DNA of 32,747 nt from Actinomycetales bacterium. GTDB taxonomy: Bacteria; Actinomycetota; Actinomycetes; S36-B12. Shown here one piece after another: positions 9,367 through 20,400 of the stretch. Under the pieces are notes generated by a model, which searched no databases, was not told where the DNA came from, and was given only the letters and a program-made list of their open reading frames with translations. The position numbers were made by a program, and so were the translations under genes. The stretch spans positions 1 to 32,747 of the forward strand of contig WGLX01000029.1 in assembly GCA_016125355.1 (NCBI GenBank). Reading direction: 5' to 3'. Every line of letters starts with the position of its first letter. The first letter of the stretch is position 1.

Positions 9367-10461
9367 GTGGCGGGCTCCCTGGTGATCATGGCCAACTCCG
9401 TCGACGAGCTCGGCGGCGCCCAGCGGGTGGCGCACACCCTCGCCAGTGGTCTGTCCCGCCGCGGCTGGGACGTCCACGCGATCGGCATCGAGCCCGCTCG
9501 GGAGCCGCACGACTACCGGGGCGAGGGCTACCGCACGACCACGCTCATGGATGCCCCCTTCGGCACCCGCGACCAGGGGGAGGAGCGCGAGGCGGCGTCC
9601 ACGTCCGCCGTAGAGCGGCTCTCGCGGATCCTCGATGACGAACGGCCGGACGCCGTCATCAGCACCCAGGTCTGGTGCATGGAGCATCTGAGCCGGGTCA
9701 GCCGCGGACCCTGGCGGGTCGTGGGCCAGTACCACTCCTCGTTCGAGGCGGCGAGCATGCCCGGTGGTCCGCTGGGTCGCCTGGTGGAGGCCTATCGCGA
9801 GGCCGACGTCGTCACGGCGCTGACCGAGGTGGATGCCGAGGCGCTGCGCGAGTCCGGCCTGCCCCAGACCGTCGCCATGCCCAATCCCCTCGCCTTCTGG
9901 CCGGAGCGGGTCGTCGATGCCGGAGCGGAGGGAGGGGAGGTGCTCGCGCTCGGCCGGCTGTCGCCGGAGAAGGCTCCCATGGTGCTCGTGCGGGCATGGC
10001 AGGAGATCGCCGACCGGCACCCGGCCTGGTCGCTGCGCTTCGTCGGCTCGGGCCCGGAGGAGGAGCGCGTCCGGGAAGCAGCCGCGCAGGGACCGTGGCG
10101 GATCCGGATCGATCCTCCCGTCGCGGACCCCCGCCCGCTCTTGCAGGAGGCGCCCGTGCTGGCGCTCCCCAGCCTGGTCGAGGGCCTTCCCCTGTCCCTG
10201 ATGGAGGCGCTGGCCCACGGCACCGCCTGCGTGGCGGCCGACTGCTCGAGTGGCGTGCGTGAGCTGGTCATCGACGGTCAGACCGGGCTGCTCGCTGTCC
10301 GGGGGGAGCCGGAGGACCTTGCTCGCCAGCTGGATCGGCTGCTCTCGGACCGGGCCCTGAGGGCCCTGCTGGGGGCCGCTGCGCGGACGCACATGGAGGC
10401 CTACCGGGCGGAGCCGATCCTCGATCGCTGGGAGCTCCTCCTGCGTGGCGATCCGGGCTGA
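9367..10461 (+). CDS. glycosyltransferase family 4 protein
   Basis: This is a 364-residue retaining GT-B glycosyltransferase. The N-terminal half has the GT4 acceptor-side motif GGAQRVAHTLA (about residues 16-26). The C-terminal half has LGRLSPEKAP, the FVGSGPEEERV strand, and the nucleotide-sugar-binding E-x7-E pair (Glu 272 and Glu 280) in VEGLPLSLMEALAHG, followed by GVRELVIDGQTGLL. These match enzymes that transfer a sugar from a nucleotide sugar in capsule, teichoic acid and mycothiol-type pathways. Donor and acceptor cannot be read from sequence. The GTG start lies one base after the TagF-like gene. The setting suggests it glycosylates or primes the polymer exported by the next two genes. 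Confidence 0.85.
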   Translation: MAGSLVIMANSVDELGGAQRVAHTLASGLSRRGWDVHAIGIEPAREPHDYRGEGYRTTTLMDAPFGTRDQGEEREAASTSAVERLSRILDDERPDAVISTQVWCMEHLSRVSRGPWRVVGQYHSSFEAASMPGGPLGRLVEAYREADVVTALTEVDAEALRESGLPQTVAMPNPLAFWPERVVDAGAEGGEVLALGRLSPEKAPMVLVRAWQEIADRHPAWSLRFVGSGPEEERVREAAAQGPWRIRIDPPVADPRPLLQEAPVLALPSLVEGLPLSLMEALAHGTACVAADCSSGVRELVIDGQTGLLAVRGEPEDLARQLDRLLSDRALRALLGAAARTHMEAYRAEPILDRWELLLRGDPG

Positions 10462-10510
10462 GCCACCGGTCCCGGATCCGAGGAGTCGGAGTCGGCGCCC
10501 GCTGGGAGGG

Positions 10511-11299
10511 ATGCCGTATGTTACCGAGGTGCTCCTTTGGCGGTACCGATCCGTGCTGCGGATGCTGGTCATGCGCGACCTGCACATCAAGTACCGCCAG
10601 TTCCGTCTCGGCTATGTCTGGGCGATCCTCGAACCCCTCGGCATGAGCGTGACGATGTGGTTCGTCTTCGAGGTCCTGCTCGGCGGCAAGAAGCTCGGCC
10701 TGCAGCCCTACTACCTGTTCCTGACCGTGGCGATCCTTCCGTGGTGGTGGTTCGTCAACAGCATCTCCGCATCGACGCGCGTGTTCATCGGACAGAACCG
10801 GACCCTGTCGGTCAGCCAGCTGCCGACGCAGTTCAACGTGGTCCGCGTACTGGTGGCCCGGGCAGCGGACTTCGTGCTCTCCCTGCCACTCGTCGTCGCG
10901 GCGATGCTGATCACCTGGACCTTCCCGACGGCGTGGATCCTGCTGTATCCGGTGGCCATGGTCATCCAGTTCGCGTTGATGTGGGGCGTCGGGCTGCTCG
11001 TCGCCTCGGTGTCCGCGATGATCCCGGACCTCGCGCGCATCATCCGGATCGTCCTCCGTGCCGCGTTCTACCTCACCCCGGTGCTGTACTCGCTGTCGAA
11101 CGTCCCGGCGGGAGCCCGTCCCCTGACGTACATCAATCCGCTGGTCGGCGTGCTCGGGCTGTACCGCATGGGCTGGTGGCCCGGCGAGCACGAGGGCTGG
11201 AAGGCCTACGCGACCTCCTTCACCGTGATCGCCATCCTCATGGTCATCGGCTTCGTCACCTTCCGACGCGTCGAGCATCGCATCCTCAAGGCCGCGTGA
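10511..11299 (+). CDS. polysaccharide/teichoic acid export ABC permease (TagG/Wzm type)
   Basis: This is an ABC-2 family inner membrane channel subunit of about 262 residues from the ATG at 10511. A 22-residue longer form from the GTG at 10445, overlapping the GT4 gene, is possible. That extension is low-complexity and Arg/Pro-rich, so I prefer 10511, which has GGGAGGG just upstream. The family signature near the start is the amphipathic MLVMRDLHIKYRQFRLGYVW segment. About six transmembrane helices follow, with the FYLTPVLYSLSNVP and YINPLVGVLGLYR motifs. It would move a lipid-linked polymer across the membrane with an ATPase. Its genetic partner, overlapping by one base, lacks ATPase motifs. 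Confidence 0.88.
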   Translation: MPYVTEVLLWRYRSVLRMLVMRDLHIKYRQFRLGYVWAILEPLGMSVTMWFVFEVLLGGKKLGLQPYYLFLTVAILPWWWFVNSISASTRVFIGQNRTLSVSQLPTQFNVVRVLVARAADFVLSLPLVVAAMLITWTFPTAWILLYPVAMVIQFALMWGVGLLVASVSAMIPDLARIIRIVLRAAFYLTPVLYSLSNVPAGARPLTYINPLVGVLGLYRMGWWPGEHEGWKAYATSFTVIAILMVIGFVTFRRVEHRILKAA

Positions 11300-12114
11300 T
11301 GGCTCGCATCCACCTGACCCCCGACCTCACGGACGAGATCCGGTTCACGGACGTCGACCTGACGATCAGCGTCGTGCGGCGCCGTGGCGGTGCATCGACC
11401 GCCCAGCGTCTCCGGCGCCTCGCCGGCGACACGAAGCGGGTTGAGGTGCCGATCTTCGACAAGCTCAACCTGTCGGTCGCCCCGGGAGAGGCCGTGGCCA
11501 TCGTGCCCGGGAGCAAGGACGCGGGCGTGCTGGAGTTCTTCCGGCTGGCCGCAGGAACGCTGATCGCCGACGGCGGAGCGGTTGAGCGCAGGCACCACGT
11601 GATCCCGATGCTGACGCGATCGGGACTGCTCAACAACTCGATCACCGTCCGCCAGAACATCTGGGTCGGCTCGCTCCTGCTCGGCCTCACCCCTGAGCAG
11701 GTGCGCGAGAGGCTCGATTGGATCGTCGGCTTCGCCGGACTCGAGAAGATCCTGGACACGTACGCCAAGCAGGTCTCACCGCTGATGCGGCGACGCGTCG
11801 TGTGGACGATGACGATGGCCACATACGCCCATGCGTTCGCCATCCAGCGCAGCCTCGTCGTCGGCGACGAGGACTTCCAGGAGAAGTGCTGGGACTACCT
11901 CGACGGCCTGCGAGCCCAGGGCGTGACCTTCCTCGTGGAGAGCACCGACGTGATGCTGCGGCGCTTCTGCACCCGTGGCGTGGTGCTCGGCAACGGCGGG
12001 GTGATCGCCGACACGACCGTCGAGGAGGCGCTGAAGCTGCGTCGGATCGACGAGACCGAGGAGGCCATGGTTCGCGAGGAGGAGTCCGAGGACGAGGACT
12101 GGCAGTCGGAGTAG
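11299..12114 (+). CDS. TagH/Wzt-like ABC 'ATPase' lacking ATPase motifs (pseudo-ATPase)
   Basis: The 271-residue product keeps the order of a TagH/Wzt nucleotide-binding protein. IFDKLNLSVAPGEAVAIV (52-69) leads to the P-loop site, ITVRQNIWVGSLLLGL (115-130) matches the LTVRENI region, VGDEDFQEKCWDYL (188-201) matches the post-Walker-B segment, and GVVLGNGGVIADTTVEEAL closes the fold. Every catalytic motif is altered. The Walker A site reads PGSKDAGV with no GK[ST], the signature LSxGM is VSPLM (159-163), the Walker B DE is missing (RSLVVGDEDF), and the H-loop His is gone (LVESTD). The tail (252-271) is strongly acidic. The reading frame is intact, so this is not an obvious decaying gene. It may pair with an active ATPase encoded elsewhere or have a non-transport role. 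Its ATG overlaps the permease stop by one base. Confidence 0.75.
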   Translation: MARIHLTPDLTDEIRFTDVDLTISVVRRRGGASTAQRLRRLAGDTKRVEVPIFDKLNLSVAPGEAVAIVPGSKDAGVLEFFRLAAGTLIADGGAVERRHHVIPMLTRSGLLNNSITVRQNIWVGSLLLGLTPEQVRERLDWIVGFAGLEKILDTYAKQVSPLMRRRVVWTMTMATYAHAFAIQRSLVVGDEDFQEKCWDYLDGLRAQGVTFLVESTDVMLRRFCTRGVVLGNGGVIADTTVEEALKLRRIDETEEAMVREEESEDEDWQSE

Positions 12115-12128
12115 CGGTCTGAGGACGA

Positions 12129-13022
12129 CTAGGCCTCGAGCGGGATCGGGACTCCCTGACGCTCGAGATCGGCGACGAGCTTGGCATAGCGGGCATCGAT
12201 GCGCTTGGTCGTCGACTCGTCGAACTGGGCCCGCCAGCGGCCTGCGTGCGACTTGGATTCCAGCACGTTCTCGTCGTACCACTGCACCATGCCCGGGTCG
12301 ACCGGGATGCCGAGGAAGTCGCAGATCGCCTGCACCGACTCGGTGCGCTTGTGCTTGACGAGGTCGAGCATGTCGATCGTGAGGATGCGGCCCGGGCGGC
12401 ACTTCTGGACCGCGGTGTGCATGCGGAGCGAACGCTTCGCCCACATGTCGAGCGCCTCGAAGATCTCGTTGGGGCCGAAGGTCTGCTCGACGAACGAGGC
12501 GGCCACGTCGCGGCCGTCACGGATGATCGCGATGACCTGCGCCTCCGGATAGATCGGCTCGATGAGGTCGGTGTGCCGGGCGTTGGCCGGCGTGCCGTCC
12601 ACCCAGCGCCGACCCTCGGCCTTGGCCGTGACCTTCGCCATGATGTCGTAGGTCATCTCCTGAGTAGCGGCCACGGGGTCCTTGCGGATGTTCGCGAGGT
12701 AGCGGTCCCCGAAGGCGCGCATCTCCTCACGGGTGATCGTCATCTGCAGGCCGCTTCCGCCGGGCCGCTTGAACCAGGCGTGACTGCACTTGCGGACCGC
12801 GCGCTCGGCCTCGCGACGGGTGAGCAGGCGCTTGGGCCAGGACGCGGTCGCCGTGGCCAGCGTCGTGGCCATGCCGCCCTCGTTCGCGATGAACCTGACT
12901 TCCTCGGGCTGGGTCAGGAACAGATCGGGGTGGTGGCCGAGTAGCCGGCCCAGGATGGTCGACCCACTCCTGCCAGTGCCGCCGACGAGCACGGGATTGA
13001 GGCAGTGTGCGGTGGTGGACAC
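12129..13022 (-). CDS. sulfotransferase family protein
   Basis: This is a 297-residue P-loop sulfotransferase, of the type that moves a sulfuryl group from PAPS to a hydroxyl. The 5'-phosphosulfate-binding loop is GGTGRSGSTILGR (14-26). The 3'-phosphate-binding strand is IIRDGRDVAASF (about 166-177). The region between contains the conserved WVDGTPAN segment. The GTG start at 13022 has no Shine-Dalgarno sequence but follows TAGTCT by six bases, so its mRNA is probably leaderless. It converges on the pseudo-ATPase gene and diverges from the GT2-TagF gene. The acceptor is unknown. The context suggests a surface glycan or polyol-phosphate polymer, though lipid or small-molecule acceptors remain possible. 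Confidence 0.85.
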   Translation of the reverse strand: MSTTAHCLNPVLVGGTGRSGSTILGRLLGHHPDLFLTQPEEVRFIANEGGMATTLATATASWPKRLLTRREAERAVRKCSHAWFKRPGGSGLQMTITREEMRAFGDRYLANIRKDPVAATQEMTYDIMAKVTAKAEGRRWVDGTPANARHTDLIEPIYPEAQVIAIIRDGRDVAASFVEQTFGPNEIFEALDMWAKRSLRMHTAVQKCRPGRILTIDMLDLVKHKRTESVQAICDFLGIPVDPGMVQWYDENVLESKSHAGRWRAQFDESTTKRIDARYAKLVADLERQGVPIPLEA

Positions 13023-13028
13023 CGGAAG

Positions 13029-13063
13029 AGACTACAGGCCGTGGAGCGGGCCATAGGTAGGCT
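13029..13063. promoter_or_regulatory. back-to-back leaderless promoters between 13022(-) and 13071(+)
   Basis: On the minus strand TAGTCT (13034 down to 13029) lies six bases before the GTG at 13022. On the plus strand TAGGCT (13058-13063) lies seven bases before the GTG at 13071. The two start codons are only 48 bases apart, so the two promoters must share their upstream DNA. No Shine-Dalgarno sequence is present for either gene. Confidence 0.55.
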
Positions 13064-13070
13064 CCTCCCC

Positions 13071-15326
13071 GTGGCGCTGTTCTCCGTGGTGGTCCCTGCG
13101 TACAACGTCCAGGCGTACCTCCGCGCCGCGATCATGTCGGTGCTCGAGCAGGACTTCGACGACGTCGAGGTCGTTGCCGTCGACGACTGCTCACCGGACA
13201 ACAGCGGCCTCATCATCGACGAGCTCGCCGCCCGTGACCCGCGCGTCAGGCCCGTGCACCTCGCGGAGAATGCCGGGCTCGGCGGTGCCCGCAATGCTGG
13301 GGTGGCCGCATCGACGGGCGACTACATCCTGTTCCTCGACGGTGACGACACCCTGACGCCCGGATCGCTGTCGGCCATCGCGGACCGGCTCCTCACGAAC
13401 GACCGACCGGAGCTGTGCGTCTACAACTACGCGCGCACATGGTGGGACGGCCGGGTCGCCGTGAGCTGGGGCGCCGAGCAGCTGGCCGCACTGTCCGCCG
13501 GCACGTTCAGGCCCCGCGAGCACAAGAAGTTGTTCAACCTGCTGCCCATCGCCTGCAACAAGGTCTACCGACGCGACCTGATCGAGCGCCTCGACGCACA
13601 CTTCGGCGAGGGCTTCTACGAGGACGTGCCGTTCACGTACCGCATCCTGACCCAGGCGGAGACCGCGGTGACGCTCAACCGGGTGGTCCTCGACTACCGA
13701 CAGCGCCGGGAGTCCGGGAGCATCCTGCGCACCCCCAGCCCGAAGCACTTCGACGTCTTCATGCAGTACGACAAGGTCTTCGAGCAGTTCGAGCGCGACG
13801 GTGTCAGCCCGGAGCTGCGTCGGCACGTCTACGACATCATGGTCAATCACTACGTGACGATCATCAGCAAGCCCGACCGGATCGCGAAGGCCCAGCGCCA
13901 GCACTTCTTCGACGAGGCCAAGAAGTCCGCCCGGAAGCACTGGCGTGATGACATCCCGGGCGAGAACACGGCGAGCGCCATCCGGGGCCGCCTTCTCCGG
14001 GACGGCACCTACTCCTCGTTCGTCGCCTACCAGCGCACCGACAAGGCCCGCCGGCGCACGAAGCGGGCCATCGGCAAGGTCTACTGGCCCACCAGGAGGA
14101 CGGTGCGCAAGGCCCGGGCGGTGGGCCGGATGGTCTACCCGCTGCTTCGGCTGATGCCCATCGACGACAACCTCGTGGTGTTCTCGGAGTACTGGGGCAC
14201 CGGATACGGCTGCAATCCCCGAGCCATCTTCGAAAGGCTCCCGGAGGTGGCTCCGCACCTCGTCCCGGTGTGGGTCATCTCCGAGGAGAAGGGGCAGTCC
14301 CTGCCTCCCGGAACGAAGCAGGTGCGACCGACCCACTGGCGGCGCTGGCCCTACTTCGCGCGAGCCAAGTACTTCGTGAACAACGTCAACTTCCCGGGCA
14401 CCTACGTCAAGCGACCCGGACAGGTGCACATCCAGACGATGCACGGCACCCCCCTGAAGCTCGTCGGGCTCGACGTCCTCGACTCCTCGGCGGCCAGCGT
14501 GGCCGTGGATCCGGTGCGTGAGCCGACGCGCAGCGAGGGCAGGGTCGTCGCGCATACCCGCGAGCAGGTGCTCAGCGAGTTCGAGAAGCTCCTCACCCGA
14601 TCCGACCGCTGGGACTACGCCCTCAGCTCGAACCCGTACTCCACCGAGACGTGGTCGCACGCCTACCCCTGCCGATACGAGTGGCTCGAGTACGGCTATC
14701 CACGCAACGACGCCCTCGTGCGGGCATCGGCGGAGGACACGGCAGCAGCACGGGCGACGCTCGGGATCCCGGACGGGGTCACCACCGTGCTGTACGCGCC
14801 CACCTTCCGCGAGGCGCCGGGGGATGTGTCCGTGCGCATCGACGTGGCCCGCGTCACCGAGCAGCTGCCGGATGACGTGGTGCTCATCGTCCGGGCCCAC
14901 CACACCGCGACCGCGGGTGACCAGGTGCGCTCCCTCATCAAGCAGGGCCGCGTCATCGACGGCTCGTCGGTGCCGGACATCCTCACCTGCTATCTGGCGG
15001 CGGACGTGCTGCTCACCGACTACTCATCGGTGATGTTCGACTACGCGCTGCTCGACCGACCGATCGTGATCTACGCCGACGACTGGGTGACCTACCGGGA
15101 GACGCGCGGCGTGTACTTCGACCTGCTCGCCGAGCCGCCCGGCCGGGTTGCTCGCAACGAGGGCGAGCTCATCGAGATCCTGCGGGATGGCCGGTACGCG
15201 GACGCGTCATCCCGCACCCTTCGGGACGCCTTCCGCGCGCGGTTCTGCGTGTTCGACCGCGGCGACGCAGCCGAGGCCGTCATCAGGAGGGTGATGATGC
15301 CGGGCTCGCCGACGGCTCAGGGGTAG
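13071..15326 (+). CDS. GT2 glycosyltransferase fused to TagF-type polyol-phosphate polymerase
   Basis: This is a 751-residue two-domain enzyme. Residues 1 to about 290 are an inverting GT2 domain (FSVVVPAYNVQAYLR, VDDCSPDNSG, and the metal-binding DGDD at 90-93). Residues from about 365 to 740 are a CDP-glycerol/ribitol-type phosphotransferase domain with the catalytic-type His 458 in TMHGTPLK and DYSS (650-653) in TDYSSVMFDYALLDRPIVIY. The two are joined by a basic linker (about 320-360). Such fusions build polymers of sugar and polyol-phosphate repeats at the membrane face. The start is set at GTG 13071, which gives the standard ALFSVVVPAYN N-terminus and sits seven bases after TAGGCT; upstream codons in frame run through the promoter. 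The last 44 bases overlap the convergent sulfatase gene. Confidence 0.9.
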   Translation: MALFSVVVPAYNVQAYLRAAIMSVLEQDFDDVEVVAVDDCSPDNSGLIIDELAARDPRVRPVHLAENAGLGGARNAGVAASTGDYILFLDGDDTLTPGSLSAIADRLLTNDRPELCVYNYARTWWDGRVAVSWGAEQLAALSAGTFRPREHKKLFNLLPIACNKVYRRDLIERLDAHFGEGFYEDVPFTYRILTQAETAVTLNRVVLDYRQRRESGSILRTPSPKHFDVFMQYDKVFEQFERDGVSPELRRHVYDIMVNHYVTIISKPDRIAKAQRQHFFDEAKKSARKHWRDDIPGENTASAIRGRLLRDGTYSSFVAYQRTDKARRRTKRAIGKVYWPTRRTVRKARAVGRMVYPLLRLMPIDDNLVVFSEYWGTGYGCNPRAIFERLPEVAPHLVPVWVISEEKGQSLPPGTKQVRPTHWRRWPYFARAKYFVNNVNFPGTYVKRPGQVHIQTMHGTPLKLVGLDVLDSSAASVAVDPVREPTRSEGRVVAHTREQVLSEFEKLLTRSDRWDYALSSNPYSTETWSHAYPCRYEWLEYGYPRNDALVRASAEDTAAARATLGIPDGVTTVLYAPTFREAPGDVSVRIDVARVTEQLPDDVVLIVRAHHTATAGDQVRSLIKQGRVIDGSSVPDILTCYLAADVLLTDYSSVMFDYALLDRPIVIYADDWVTYRETRGVYFDLLAEPPGRVARNEGELIEILRDGRYADASSRTLRDAFRARFCVFDRGDAAEAVIRRVMMPGSPTAQG

Positions 15327-17061
15327 CCGGGGGCGTCGGAGGTGGGGTGGGCGCCGGGGTCGGCGTGAGGACGGGGGCCGCCTGGGCGGGCCATTGCCCG
15401 AACGGCGGAGGCTGAATGAGGGACGGCGTTCCGGGGGCGCTGGGCGAGGGCAGCATGTCGGCGATCCGGCATGTCGGCCCGGCGCACTTCACCAGTGACT
15501 GCAGCTGTGCCCGGAGATTCGCCACGGTCGTCGGGTCGGTGACCTTGATGACGTTGTTCATCTCGAAGGGGTCGGTCACCAGGTTGTAGAGCGAGGCGTA
15601 CTTGCCGTACGAGACGTAGAGCCAGTCGTGCGTGCGCAGCGCGTGGAACTTGGGGATCGTCGTCTTCTCGTAGTCGGGGTCGCCCTTCTTCGGCGTCGAG
15701 AGCGACTCGGTGAGCAGACCGGTCCGCCAGGGGATCGTGGGGTCCTCGATGAGGGGGAGCAGGTTGCGCCCGTCGGCGAAGGCCGGCGTCTGGGCGTTCA
15801 TGTAGGCGGCAATCGTCGGGCCGAGGTCGATCGTGGAGGTCAGCGCATCGATCGTTGTCCCAGCCCTCATCCCCGGACCGATGAGGACGGTCGGCACCAC
15901 CGTGTCCTCCCGGTAGGGGGAGTGCTTGCCGCTGAGCATCCGGTGCACGCCTGCGTGGTAGCCGTTGTCGGACGTGACGATCACCAGCGTGTCGTCCGCG
16001 TGACCGGTCGCCTTCAACGTGGCGAGGACGGCATCGACCGAGTCTGCGAACGTCTCCGCCGACTCCAGGCGCCGGCTCCACAGGCCGTTCAACGACTCCA
16101 TCTGCCGGATGCTCAGGGGCTTCAGGCCCTGCTGCCACGGAGCCGGGTCGAGGCCGGTCCTGTTGAACGACGGCGGTTGCGGAGCTCCGGTGCCGTACCG
16201 GGTGCCTCGGTTCTTGACGGACGAGGGAGCCGGGGTATGCGGCACGTAGGTGTTGAGCTCGAGGTAGAACGGCGCCTGCGCCTGCTGAAGCCACGAGGTG
16301 GCATCCGCGGTCAGCGCGTCATTGAGGAAGGTCGGCCCGCCCCACGACAGCTGTCCGTCGGTGGACAGGCGATACCCGTAGCCCGTGTAGACGATGTTCC
16401 CGTTGACGGGCGTGGTGAAGTGGTCCCAGCCCGGCGGCACATAGGAGCGCATCCTGACCCGCTTGCCCGGGAACCCGTTGAGGTACTTGCCGACATGGGC
16501 GGTCTGGACGCCGGCCGAGGACAGCCAGGTGGGCAGGCAGTCGTTCTCATGGCCGAGGTCGTGGAACTTGGCCCAGCCTCCGCCGGTCTTGATGCCGTTG
16601 GAGATGACGCGGTGGTTGTGGACGTACTGGCTGCGGTAGATCGAACTTCGTGAGGGGCAGCACAGCGAGTCGGTGACGACGTAGTTGGTCAGCGTCACGC
16701 CCTTGTCCTTGAGCGCCTTGAGGCGAGGGACCTGCTCGAAGGCGTACCAGTCCAGATCGTCGGCGAGGAGCATGACGACGTTCTTCGCCTGTCCGGTGGG
16801 CGGCGGGGTGACGTCGGCAGACGCGCTCGGCTCCGGCGTGGGGAGGGGGACGGGCTCGAGTGGACGGCCCAGCAGGTCGGTCAGCGCACGACCGCTCGGC
16901 GACGGGCCAGCGGCCACGACGCCGGAGCCGCCCGCGGACGACTGGGCGTTCGAGGGAGCCCCCAGATCGCGGATGAGGATCGAGCCGATCAGCAGGGTGA
17001 GGATGGTGGCCACTGCCGCGACGACCACGCGGGTCCGCCGGGGCGGCATGGCATGACGCAC
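15283..17061 (-). CDS. membrane-anchored sulfatase
   Basis: This is a 592-residue member of the formylglycine-dependent sulfatases, which hydrolyse sulfate esters. A single N-terminal hydrophobic helix (about 11-30) acts as signal-anchor and is followed by an S/P/G-rich spacer (about 35-90). The catalytic domain opens with NVVMLLADDLDW, whose Asp 101/102 are metal ligands. The activation motif is CCPSR (134-138), with Cys 134 the expected formylglycine site. TSDNGYHAGVHRMLSGK supplies further metal and substrate residues. The C-terminus is a Pro/Thr/Ser-rich tail. The GTG at 17061 has AGGAG five bases away. It is predicted to act outside the membrane on sulfated polymers. An activating enzyme is not in the window. 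Its 3' end overlaps the GT2-TagF gene by 44 bases. Confidence 0.9.
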   Translation of the reverse strand: MRHAMPPRRTRVVVAAVATILTLLIGSILIRDLGAPSNAQSSAGGSGVVAAGPSPSGRALTDLLGRPLEPVPLPTPEPSASADVTPPPTGQAKNVVMLLADDLDWYAFEQVPRLKALKDKGVTLTNYVVTDSLCCPSRSSIYRSQYVHNHRVISNGIKTGGGWAKFHDLGHENDCLPTWLSSAGVQTAHVGKYLNGFPGKRVRMRSYVPPGWDHFTTPVNGNIVYTGYGYRLSTDGQLSWGGPTFLNDALTADATSWLQQAQAPFYLELNTYVPHTPAPSSVKNRGTRYGTGAPQPPSFNRTGLDPAPWQQGLKPLSIRQMESLNGLWSRRLESAETFADSVDAVLATLKATGHADDTLVIVTSDNGYHAGVHRMLSGKHSPYREDTVVPTVLIGPGMRAGTTIDALTSTIDLGPTIAAYMNAQTPAFADGRNLLPLIEDPTIPWRTGLLTESLSTPKKGDPDYEKTTIPKFHALRTHDWLYVSYGKYASLYNLVTDPFEMNNVIKVTDPTTVANLRAQLQSLVKCAGPTCRIADMLPSPSAPGTPSLIQPPPFGQWPAQAAPVLTPTPAPTPPPTPPATPEPSASPASSPS

Positions 17062-17118
17062 GAGTTCTCCTGTTCCTGCTCCGGACTTGGACCGTCGAAG
17101 CAGGATAGGTCATGTCGG

Positions 17119-17124
17119 TACGAT
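17119..17124 (+). promoter_or_regulatory. candidate -10 of a leaderless transcript (17131 operon)
   Basis: TACGAT is followed by six bases and then the ATG at 17131. There is no Shine-Dalgarno sequence. This lies in the 69-base gap between divergent sulfatase and sulfotransferase genes. The sulfatase, in contrast, has a proper Shine-Dalgarno site. Confidence 0.5.
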
Positions 17125-17130
17125 CCCCTC

Positions 17131-18240
17131 ATGCCGGAACCCGTGCACGGACTCGTGCCGCCCGGATCGCTGGCCCTCCACATCGGCGTGCACAAGACCG
17201 GCACCACCGCCGTCCAGTCCGCCCTGGCGGCCCGACGGGGCGACCTCCGCGCCCACAGCGTGGACTACCCGGGAACCCTCATGGCCCACCGAACCGTGGC
17301 CTCGTCCGCCATGGGCAGGCCGCTGGGGTTTCGGACGGACGGCGCGCGGCCGCCACGGCGCGGGCTCTGGGAGCGCACCCTCAAGGATGCGGACGCCTTC
17401 CCCGGCACCACCCTGATCTCCAGTGAGTTCTTCGCCGAGGCCGATGACGAGACATGCCAGCGGATGGTGGCGGAGGCGGGACCGGATCGACTGCGGGTCG
17501 TGGTCACCCTCCGCAACCTTGCCAAGATCCTGCCCTCGGCCTGGCAGCAGAACCTGAAGTCCGGGTTCCGCACGCCGTACGAGGACTGGCTGCGCTTCAT
17601 CCTTCTGGACGAGGAGGGCTCCAAGGGCACCACGTTCTGGCGCCGGCATCGCCATGACCTCGTAGTGCGCCGCTGGGCGGCCGCCGCGGGAGCCGACCAC
17701 GTCACGGTCGTCGTCGTGGACGACCGTGATCGCGATGGCATCTACCGCTCGTTCGAGCAGCTGCTCGGTCTGCCGACCGGCTTCCTCTCCCCGTCCGAGG
17801 GAACCTCGGCCAACCGGTCCTTCACCGCAGCCGAGGCGGAGCTCTTCCGCCGACTCAATCTGGCGGTGGCGGATGCGGGGGGGTGGTCGCGTTTCCGCAA
17901 CGCCGCTCACGACGGACTGGAGAAGTCCCTCGTCGAGGGTCGGTCCGCGGATCCGAGCGAGGCCCGGCTCCAGACGCCGCAGTGGGCCCTCGACCGGGCC
18001 GCTGACCTGGCCGACAGCTTCGTGGCCGCCATCCGGGACTCAGGGGTCCACGTGCTCGGCGATCTCGACGTGCTCGCCGAGCGTCTGGCCGGGCCCGAGT
18101 CGGCGCCCGAGGTTCCGGACGATGTCCCGATCGACGCCGCGGTCGCGGCCCTCCTCGGCGTGCTGGAGTCTGCCGCCCAGAACAGCGGCCCGAGCACGAG
18201 CGCCCTGCACCGGGCGCGCGGCCTGTTGCGTCGTCGCTGA
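17131..18240 (+). CDS. second sulfotransferase-like protein
   Basis: The product is 369 residues from the ATG at 17131, the start favoured by the leaderless promoter geometry; in-frame codons upstream would run into the sulfatase promoter. The PAPS-binding loop is HIGVHKTGTTAVQSAL (HKTGTT at 21-26). A 3'-phosphate-site-like strand is VVTLRNLAKILPSAWQQ (about 124-140). The C-terminal half (about 230-369) is not clearly assignable. It is quite different from the sulfotransferase at 12129, so the two probably use different acceptors. It is followed after three bases by the acyltransferase gene, so sulfation and acylation genes share a transcript. Acceptor unknown. Confidence 0.78.
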   Translation: MPEPVHGLVPPGSLALHIGVHKTGTTAVQSALAARRGDLRAHSVDYPGTLMAHRTVASSAMGRPLGFRTDGARPPRRGLWERTLKDADAFPGTTLISSEFFAEADDETCQRMVAEAGPDRLRVVVTLRNLAKILPSAWQQNLKSGFRTPYEDWLRFILLDEEGSKGTTFWRRHRHDLVVRRWAAAAGADHVTVVVVDDRDRDGIYRSFEQLLGLPTGFLSPSEGTSANRSFTAAEAELFRRLNLAVADAGGWSRFRNAAHDGLEKSLVEGRSADPSEARLQTPQWALDRAADLADSFVAAIRDSGVHVLGDLDVLAERLAGPESAPEVPDDVPIDAAVAALLGVLESAAQNSGPSTSALHRARGLLRRR

Positions 18241-18243
18241 GTC

Positions 18244-20400
18244 ATGTCCGCCCCCGGCAAGGTCTCGGCAGTCGACCACGGTTCGGCGGTGGCGCCGGAT
18301 CCCGTCTTCCGGCATCGGGTCCCGATCGACGGGCTGCGTGCGGTGGCGGTCCTCCTCGTGCTCCTGTTCCACGCCGGAATGCCGGGGATGGCCAACGGAT
18401 ATGTCGGGGTGGACGTCTTCTTCGTGCTGTCGGGCTACCTGATCACCACGCTGCTCGTACGCGAGCGATGGGCCACCGGGCGGATCTCCCTCATCGGCTT
18501 CTACGCCCGCCGGATGCGCCGGCTGCTCCCGGCGGCCATCCTCGTCCTCGTCGTCACGGCGATCGCCTACCGGCTCCTCGCCGATCCCCTCGACCTGCTC
18601 GCCAACCGAGCAGGCTTCGGCTGGGCGGCGGTGTACCTGTCGAACTGGTACTTCCTGGCGCACTCGCAGGACTACTTCGCCGTGTCGGACGCCCCGAGCC
18701 CCGTCCTGCACTACTGGTCACTGGGGGTGGAGGAGCAGTTCTACCTCGCCTGGCCGCTCGTTCTCGTCGGATTGCTCGGACTCCTGGCGGCGCGGCGCCG
18801 CCTCCTCGCCCCCGCACTCACGGCGCTCGCCGCCGGGGGGCTGCTGCTCTCGTGGTGGATGGACGCCGCCAACCCGACGGGCGCCTACTTCAACACCTTC
18901 GCCCGCGTCTACCAGCTGCTGGCGGGTGCCGCCCTGGCCGTATGGCTGGCCCGCCGCGGGGAGCGGACGGCACCAGCGTCGCGATCAGCCTCGCGATCCC
19001 GGCGATCCCGGTTGGGCGCCGGTGCCATCGGAGCCAGTGGGGTGATCCTCGCGCTCGTGCTGGTCGCCGGGGAGGCCCTCAGCCCCTGGCTCGTCGGGGT
19101 GATCGGGGTCGGCGCCACCGTGGGGTTCCTGGCGGGCATCGAGCTGAGTCCCGAATCCCGGCTCCTGCGCCCCCTCGTGTCCGTGCCAGCGGTGCGGATC
19201 GGTGGCTGGTCGTACGCGATGTACCTGTGGCACTGGCCCGTGATCGTCCTCGGGGCACTGGCGCTGCCGTGGACGACAGGCCTCGTCTGGCCGCTGCGCG
19301 TCCTGCTGGTGCTGGCGGTCACTGTCGGCCTGTCGGCAGCGACCGGACGCCTCGTGGAGGCCCGCACGCGGCGGATCTCGCTGCGGACCGGCCCGCAGCG
19401 ACAGGTGGCCATCGCGACCGGGCTGGCCGCCTCGCTCGCCTGCGGTGCGCTCGTGCTCGGTGTCGTCCAGGCTCCGATGCGCGTCCAGCAGATGGCGGCC
19501 ATCGCGTCGGCGGGTCAGGTCGACGACAGTTCGGCCACGACGGCCACCGTCGATGTCGTCCAGGCACCCGCCGACACGACCGCGCCATCGGATGCCGCGA
19601 CGGATCCCGGTCCCGCGGCGTCACGGTTCCACACCGCCGAGGCCCGAGGACGCCCGTCCACCGTCCTGCTCATCGGGGACTCGCACGCGGAGCTGTGGCG
19701 GGAGGGCTTCCTCGATGCCGCCTCCAGGCTCGGCTTCACGGGCATCATGATCACCTCGTCCGGGTGTCCCTGGATGGACCTGCCGGCCCTCAGCGGGCAG
19801 ACGGGCGAGCCCGTCGACTGCCAGGACAAGCTCTGGAAGCCCGCCCTGGAGGCCGCCCGCACCTACCAACCCGACCTGGTGATCCTCATCTCGAGGTCGG
19901 TGCTCAGCAGGCACCTCGTCATCAACGGCCAGGTGCTCCGCTCCGGAGACCCGGGATGGGCGAGCGTCATGTCCGCCGGGGTTCGGACATCCCTTGCGCA
20001 GATGGTCCCGCTGGCCAAGCAGATCGCCCTGGTCGAGCCGTACCCGCTGACCCGGACGCCCATGATCGACTGCCTGAGCACGGGAGCCCCGCCCGCGTCC
20101 TGCGATCAGCTGGCCTGGCAGATGCCGGGGACGGAATCGGTGCTCCCGCTCTACCGTCAGCTCGCGTCCACGTACCCGAACGTGACCTCGGTCTCGCTGG
20201 CCGACCTGATCTGCCCCGGGGGCATCTGCCCGGCCGAGGTCGACGGCCTGCCGACCTTCGCCGACGACAACCACCTCACGCACGCGTTCGCCGCCACGCT
20301 GGTGCCCGGCCTGCTGCAGGTGCTCGCCGACGACGGCATGCTCGTCCGAGGTGCCTCCGGGACCCCCGTCGCCGAACCAGAGGTAGGCTCACTCCCATGA
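18244..20400 (+). CDS. OafA/YrhL-type O-acyltransferase with C-terminal SGNH domain
   Basis: This is a 718-residue membrane acyltransferase. Residues from about 25 to 420 form the acyltransferase-3 domain with about ten transmembrane helices. It carries the catalytic-type His 43 (LLFHAG), the GYVGVDVFFVLSGYLIT motif, FYARRMRRLLPA and the SLGVEEQFYLAWP motif. After a Thr/Ala-rich linker (about 425-465) comes an extracytoplasmic SGNH domain with GDSH (Ser 480) and DDNH (Asp 674 and His 677). Two-domain proteins of this type pass an acyl group, usually acetyl, across the membrane and place it on surface glycans or peptidoglycan. Its stop overlaps the start of the DLW-39 gene as ATGA (20397-20400). 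Confidence 0.9.
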   Translation: MSAPGKVSAVDHGSAVAPDPVFRHRVPIDGLRAVAVLLVLLFHAGMPGMANGYVGVDVFFVLSGYLITTLLVRERWATGRISLIGFYARRMRRLLPAAILVLVVTAIAYRLLADPLDLLANRAGFGWAAVYLSNWYFLAHSQDYFAVSDAPSPVLHYWSLGVEEQFYLAWPLVLVGLLGLLAARRRLLAPALTALAAGGLLLSWWMDAANPTGAYFNTFARVYQLLAGAALAVWLARRGERTAPASRSASRSRRSRLGAGAIGASGVILALVLVAGEALSPWLVGVIGVGATVGFLAGIELSPESRLLRPLVSVPAVRIGGWSYAMYLWHWPVIVLGALALPWTTGLVWPLRVLLVLAVTVGLSAATGRLVEARTRRISLRTGPQRQVAIATGLAASLACGALVLGVVQAPMRVQQMAAIASAGQVDDSSATTATVDVVQAPADTTAPSDAATDPGPAASRFHTAEARGRPSTVLLIGDSHAELWREGFLDAASRLGFTGIMITSSGCPWMDLPALSGQTGEPVDCQDKLWKPALEAARTYQPDLVILISRSVLSRHLVINGQVLRSGDPGWASVMSAGVRTSLAQMVPLAKQIALVEPYPLTRTPMIDCLSTGAPPASCDQLAWQMPGTESVLPLYRQLASTYPNVTSVSLADLICPGGICPAEVDGLPTFADDNHLTHAFAATLVPGLLQVLADDGMLVRGASGTPVAEPEVGSLP
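20384..20389 (+). promoter_or_regulatory. candidate -10 of leaderless DLW-39 transcript
   Basis: TAGGCT lies inside the last codons of the acyltransferase gene, seven bases before the ATG at 20397. It is the same hexamer, with the same seven-base distance, as at 13058. It would give the small gene, and perhaps tRNA-Ala, its own transcription. Confidence 0.5.

Follow-up and report, generated by a model that had tools for sequence, protein, structure and literature searches.

The window, by which we mean the whole stretch of DNA analysed, is an entire contig of 32,747 bases from a genome of 3.34 Mb in 45 contigs (~96% complete). The contig opens with dnaN, recF, gyrB, gyrA and a DUF3566 gene, which are followed by a block of cell-envelope genes; downstream of this block come cyclophilin, thiolase, pknB, pbpA, rodA and phosphatase genes. 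The envelope block begins with a GT4-type glycosyltransferase (9367..10461, plus strand; Pfam Glyco_trans_1_4, E 2.2e-29), which lies upstream of a permease and which also adjoins the gene pair described here in most homologous loci. The permease (262 aa; 10511..11299, plus strand) is of uncertain start, either GTG 10445 or ATG 10511, and when read from 10445 it matches Pfam ABC2_membrane at E 1.6e-9. It is paired with a TagH/Wzt-like protein of 271 aa (11299..12114, plus strand), which we call a pseudo-NBD (nucleotide-binding domain). The block continues with a sulfotransferase (12129..13022, minus strand; Pfam Sulfotransfer_3, E 2.1e-26), which accompanies the pair in 9 of 47 loci (L038-L046), and a GT2 fused to a TagF/TarF-type glycerophosphotransferase (13005..15326, plus strand, probably starting later than 13005; Pfam Glyphos_transf, E 3.4e-105, and Glycos_transf_2, E 1.2e-34; NCBIfam TarF, E 4.7e-55, below cut-off). 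These are followed by a sulfatase/phosphoric-ester-hydrolase-like protein (15283..17061, minus strand; NCBIfam HdlasePehA, E 2.7e-26, below cut-off), a protein of unknown family (17053..18240, plus strand) and an acyltransferase (AT3)-SGNH protein (18244..20400, plus strand; Pfam Acyl_transf_3, E 7.2e-27, and SGNH, E 2.2e-26). The GT2-TagF/TarF fusion adjoins two sulfur-group genes, and the polymer is perhaps a sulfated, teichoic-acid-like one.

The frame of the pseudo-NBD is open throughout, and it starts with an ATG whose A also ends the stop codon of the permease. In a comparison with PDB sequences, residues 49-242 align with the Wzt of Aquifex aeolicus (6m96, E 1.9e-20) and also with TarH and TagH, and the alignment spans the NBD from one end to the other. 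In the aligned columns the canonical GPNGAGKS reads PGSKDAGV, YSSGM reads VSPLM, VSHD reads ESTD, and the Walker B DE is missing. Alignment and frame thus bear out the initial annotation, which had described a TagH/Wzt-like NBD with four altered motifs, an open frame and a one-base overlap with the permease. A Pfam search of the window protein with a limit of E 1 returned no family; among 33 scanned members of the pseudo-NBD family, 23 retain a match to ABC_tran with an E of no more than 0.1.

When 195 related genomes were searched, close homologues of the pseudo-NBD turned up in the window's bacterial family. With a profile built from 33 homologues, and taking a best match of at least 285 bits as a family-level match, the protein is present in 54 of the 85 genomes of this family. 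The best intact relative outside it reached 202 bits in the order (166 genomes) and 205 bits in the class (394 genomes), so the pseudo-NBD is not a chance match. No pseudo-NBD at the profile's level was found outside the bacterial family in the 394 class genomes, where an independently evolved one could score too low. One genome outside the 54 (G084) has a fragment only, at a contig end. The homologous loci come from uncultivated actinobacterial assemblies, aquatic for the most part. Several loci (L105-L107, L111, L114, L124 and L128, with L035 of genome G062 as the example locus) encode the same family under ill-fitting record titles such as Bifidobacterium breve or Rubrivirga sp., and these are probably misnamed metagenome bins.

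We counted the motifs in 48 aligned pseudo-NBDs (the window protein plus 47 loci) and in 14 reference NBDs. The Walker A lysine (remnant at residues 69-80, 11503..11538, plus strand) is kept in none of the 48 and is replaced by Arg in 37. Neither the SSG of the ABC signature (residues 158-170, 11770..11808, plus strand) nor the A-loop aromatic is kept in any of them. The Walker B DE (residues 179-186, 11833..11856, plus strand) is gone in the window protein and in 40/48; the eight pseudo-NBDs that keep it include loci from genus g3, and the Walker B Asp is present in 29/48. The H-loop His (residues 213-218, 11935..11952, plus strand) is gone in the window protein and in 47/48, the one exception being L074. 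The four classical motifs are jointly absent in 39/48 pseudo-NBDs and jointly present in 14/14 reference NBDs. The loss is graded, as the g3 loci L072, L075-L079, L081, L083 and L084 have a GxxxxGRT loop, and because eight members retain the DE and one the H-loop His, residual nucleotide binding is possible in part of the family. Judged by its sequence, the pseudo-NBD lacks what a functional Wzt/TagH ATPase needs for catalysis (Walker A, signature, Walker B DE and H-loop His), yet it is homologous to one. That the window protein is a conserved pseudo-NBD we hold with very high confidence.

Of 87 pairs, 74 for the pseudo-NBD and 81 for the permease had dS < 2, and over these the median dN/dS was 0.108 and 0.070, respectively; both proteins are under purifying selection. 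The initial annotation had raised the loss of all four motifs across homologues at low dN/dS. This stands for the lysine and the signature, lost in 48/48, and for the low ratio, and does not stand for the DE and the His, which persist in eight members and in one. As to intact motifs in close relatives, which it had named as evidence against its reading, the lysine or the signature occurs in 0/48 within the bacterial family and intact motifs only in other families.

Conservation was compared in 31 of the 48 pseudo-NBDs and 12 of the 14 intact sequences, those more than 85% identical having been dropped and the segment borders set by hand. At Walker A it falls from 0.89 in intact NBDs to 0.51 in pseudo-NBDs, and over gate-helix residues 28-45 the mean rises from 0.53 to 0.77. 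Pseudo-NBDs are well conserved in the stretch following Walker B and in the basic gate-helix region near the N-terminus. In the latter (residues 28-47, 11380..11439, plus strand) R28, R29 and R40 are invariant in 33/33, and the new invariants of the family are R28, R40, R82, T87, R164, W169 and F211, with R164 and W169 inside the signature remnant. A tree of NBDs that took 30 of the 48 pseudo sequences (alignments A1 and A2 took 33) places them in a single clade with support 100/100 and a long stem of 1.53. The predicted structure of the window protein (pLDDT 89.4) superposes on the ATP-bound A. aeolicus Wzt 7k2t with a Z of 26.8 and an rmsd of 2.2 over 230 residues. The gate-helix insertion between strands 1 and 2 is present in the model (strand 14-28, helix 34-41, strand 45-60); passages of PMC6379404 describe this helix as a feature of Wzt and as the likely undecaprenyl-diphosphate site. 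The pseudo-NBD belongs to the Wzt/TagH lineage, its nearest relatives by sequence and structure being Wzt, TagH and TarH.

The permease is assigned to the Wzm/TagG type by its ABC2_membrane domain and its match to solved Wzm and TarG: the profile of its family aligns with A. aeolicus Wzm (6m96_B) at E 8.9e-25 and with TarG as well. Of the 47 homologous loci, 45 have it next to the pseudo-NBD, and the remaining two lie at contig ends. The LG-loop, the TM1 proline and the TM5 Asp of A. aeolicus Wzm are all present, and L33, G34, W37, P42 and D173 (L23, G24, W27, P32 and D167 of A. aeolicus Wzm) are invariant in 33/33; L23, W27, P32 and D167 are described as parts of the moving entrance in passages of PMC6379404. 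The permeases of pseudo-NBD pairs form one clade, in a quick tree with long branches that we rely on for the single-clade result. Its stem is long (1.81), so the permease has changed too. The predicted model of the permease is of modest confidence (pLDDT 79.4). Family-wide motif loss, purifying selection and the single clade support the proposal of the initial annotation that a conserved pseudo-NBD is paired with the permease of a polymer exporter.

In related families the same cluster (permease, NBD, CDP-alcohol transferase, glycosyltransferase and often an LCP ligase) carries an intact NBD. Walker A is intact in 13/13 loci of the order and class and in 20/20 further class loci. Among these 20, a simple signature pattern failed in L193, the Walker B match of L188 (AVLDQ) was not clean, the H-loop pattern failed in L194-L196, though the His is visible in their sequences, and L199 has a second, generic NBD as well. 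A CDP-alcohol transferase accompanies the pair in 31 of 47 pseudo-NBD loci and stands beside the intact pair in 9/13 loci of the order and class and in 8/20 of the further class loci. The neighbours in L057, for example, are a DUF5941/CDP-alcohol protein, a second CDP-alcohol transferase, a GT2, an LCP ligase and an amidase. Because intact pairs occupy the same cluster in related families, the pseudo-NBD sits where a live NBD sits, in a pathway that is otherwise unchanged. An ordinary exporter has lost its ATPase in place, in one lineage, and the pathway has stayed.

The association with this pathway is also seen in gene content. Of the 54 genomes with the pseudo-NBD, 53 have the CDP-alcohol transferase, versus 11 of the 31 without it, a difference to which physical linkage and shared ancestry contribute; the two co-occur even when encoded on separate contigs, the window's own genome being an example. 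Where the cluster is present without the pseudo-NBD, the pair is cleanly missing in 6/6 loci (five of genus g14 and one of G020). Among the matches listed and the best score per genome, an additional canonical Wzt occurs in 8 of 11 cluster genomes lacking the pseudo-NBD versus 1 of 53 having it. These extra Wzt proteins, three of which were checked for Walker A, are located outside the cluster and may have replaced the function of the pair. These co-occurrence counts ignore relatedness, and the pair-less cases, being genus g14 plus one g8 genome (G020), amount to ~two events.

An active ATPase encoded elsewhere could serve the permease, and a second, canonical Wzt, which the initial annotation had suggested looking for in the window's genome, does exist: one other Wzm/Wzt pair, with intact motifs, lies on contig 18. 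We therefore considered the 26 pseudo-NBD genomes of good quality (completeness of 90% or more, contamination of 5% or less), reading the presence of a canonical Wzt from the matches listed and the best score of each genome. On this basis 16 have an orthologue of the contig-18 Wzt, two have another Wzt (that of G036 being a partial match at a contig end), and in eight there is none. In these eight, the canonical-Wzt profile gives 134-179 bits to the pseudo-NBD and at most 111 bits to any other NBD, as compared with 270-287 bits for the true Wzt in three control genomes; each has a single matching permease. A Wzt partner is thus not a general requirement, and the absence from 8 of 26 rules out a canonical Wzt elsewhere as an obligate partner. 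Nor did the 47 pseudo-NBD loci, of up to 18 kb, contain a second NBD matching a Wzt query. The best other NBDs of seven of the eight Wzt-less genomes (L164-L170; G012 was left out) were also considered and rejected: they are hydrolase-like fusions with no link to the pair, the hydrolase-like domain having been recognised by eye in four sequences.

Our preferred reading is that the pair exports an undecaprenyl-linked cell-wall glycopolymer as a transporter of the Wzm/Wzt (TagGH) type, in which the NBD has become a pseudo-ATPase serving as gate and scaffold and which is not driven by ATP hydrolysis at its own sites. To this we give an even chance, and export without ATP hydrolysis at its own sites, taken by itself, stands at roughly the same level. 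In its fullest form the proposal is of an ABC-type polymer exporter without any functional nucleotide site, with a dead pseudo-NBD in both NBD positions as lipid-diphosphate gate and scaffold, and with power from chain synthesis, wall capture or an ion gradient; this version we advance tentatively, as falling a little short of even. Two pseudo-NBDs would dock on two permeases in a WzmWzt-like manner and keep the basic gate helix positioned at the channel's entrance on the cytosolic side, where it would take up the lipid-diphosphate terminus of the polymer. The conduit would be made of the permease's LG-loop and first transmembrane helix and would no longer need nucleotide-driven opening. Candidates for moving the polymer are chain extension inside, LCP-mediated transfer to peptidoglycan outside, or an ion gradient. 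To our knowledge, all characterised members of the Wzm/Wzt-type exporters use ATP, which counts against export without it. So does the description, in passages of PMC9445017, of translocation energised by repeated cycles of ATP hydrolysis. In passages of PMC9445017 and PMC6379404, nucleotide-free Wzm/Wzt can make a continuous channel, which makes a fixed conduit plausible.

The main rival was already put forward by the initial annotation: a heteromeric exporter in which an active NBD from elsewhere pairs with the permease, with the pseudo-NBD as its regulatory or structural half. Asymmetric NBD pairs in which one site has degenerated are a familiar arrangement, as passages of PMC7756269 attest, and a possible donor is encoded in the 18 good genomes counted above among the matches listed and best scores (16 with an orthologue of one canonical Wzt, two with another). 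Generic ABC domains are abundant in the window's genome as well (84 PF00005 matches, none of them on the window's contig), and a generic ABC ATPase may act in trans. The proposal is weakened by the eight good genomes in which the matches listed and best scores show no canonical Wzt and one matching permease each, by the lack of a second NBD matching a Wzt query in the 47 loci, and by the fusions that are the best other NBDs in seven of those eight genomes, whose relatives occur in genomes lacking the pseudo-NBD too. We consider the heteromer unlikely, though deserving of attention. A different possibility is that the pair has left transport and become a membrane scaffold, a sensor or a scramblase-like regulator of glycopolymer assembly; the residues for ATP-driven cycling are all lost and the seven new invariants have appeared. 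The initial annotation had offered a pair that is no longer a transporter as its alternative. It becomes less likely, as the exporter's place in the export cluster with the LCP ligase is unchanged, the permease shows no variation at its substrate-path residues, no other exporter was seen in the 47 loci with the pair, and 8 of the 26 good genomes have no other Wzm/Wzt among the matches listed and best scores. We regard this departure from transport as improbable.

Binding of ATP or another nucleotide through the altered site, without hydrolysis or with very slow hydrolysis, might be read from the Arg in place of the Lys, the retained Walker B Asp, and the one group with GxxxxGRT and DE; however, the lysine, the signature and the stacking aromatic are gone in 48/48 and the H-loop His in 47/48, and the loop is poorly conserved (0.51), which leaves this highly improbable. 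To a recent pseudogene or an assembly error, for which the motif loss itself and nothing more could be cited, we assign practically no credence: it is ruled out by the open frame in 48 species-level genomes, a dN/dS of ~0.11 and the single clade.

ABC transporters are defined by the coupling of ATP hydrolysis to movement. With the Wzm/Wzt O-antigen exporter of Aquifex aeolicus (6m96, 7k2t, 8dne) the pair shares the NBD fold, the permease sequence, the operon pairing and the gate-helix region; unlike it, the pseudo-NBD has no catalytic motifs, and the 271-aa protein has no C-terminal carbohydrate-binding domain. Both subunits are also sequence relatives of the TarGH/TagGH wall teichoic acid exporter (6jbh, 9cfl, 7dd0), and the window's cluster has a TagF/TarF-type domain, but TarGH hydrolyses ATP according to passages of PMC7078476, whereas the motifs are absent from the pseudo-NBD. 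The intact NBD-permease pairs of other actinomycete families (L085-L095, L180-L199) hold the orthologous position, many of them with CDP-alcohol transferase, GT2 and LCP genes alongside, and differ in having Walker A (13/13 and 20/20 loci). ABC exporters with one degenerate nucleotide site, such as TM287/288 and TmrAB, likewise have an NBD with non-consensus motifs; their second site is canonical, as passages of PMC7756269 state, while the locus of our pair encodes one NBD, which is fully degenerate. A literature search covering mostly titles and abstract openings, with most subscription journals and bioRxiv outside its scope, returned no fully dead NBD as the sole NBD of a polymer exporter. 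A polymer exporter appears to have been stripped of its ATPase in evolution, with both subunits and the pathway retained, and this suggests an exporter of the ABC type that can work without an ATPase of its own. With intact and dead versions in the same cluster of related families, a ready comparison is available of which steps in the export of lipid-linked polymers need ATP, and it bears as well on whether a driving force other than ATP can move polymer through Wzm-type channels.

Some further observations concern the neighbouring genes and the wider family. Many genomes of the bacterial family encode a protein of ~790-870 aa in which a hydrolase-like domain is fused to an ABC ATPase (L164-L170). 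For the protein at 17053-18240, searches of Pfam, NCBIfam and PDB gave no family and no convincing PDB match; its N-terminus presumably resembles a sulfotransferase P-loop. A homologue lies just 3' of the pseudo-NBD in 37 of 47 loci. Of the 13 intact-NBD loci in the order and class, 12 lack it, with a weak match in L096, and weak matches are also found in L194 and L196 among the 20 further class loci. The genes running from the permease through the acyltransferase-SGNH protein, together with the GT4 upstream (9367-20400 in the window; L202, L205), appear to have moved as one unit from the LCP/CDP-alcohol cluster to its site beside gyrA, near the replication origin genes. Contig 11 of the window's genome keeps a remnant of the pathway, the LCP/CDP-alcohol cluster without the pair, and genome G017 has the transporter block and the LCP/CDP-alcohol cluster in a joined arrangement.
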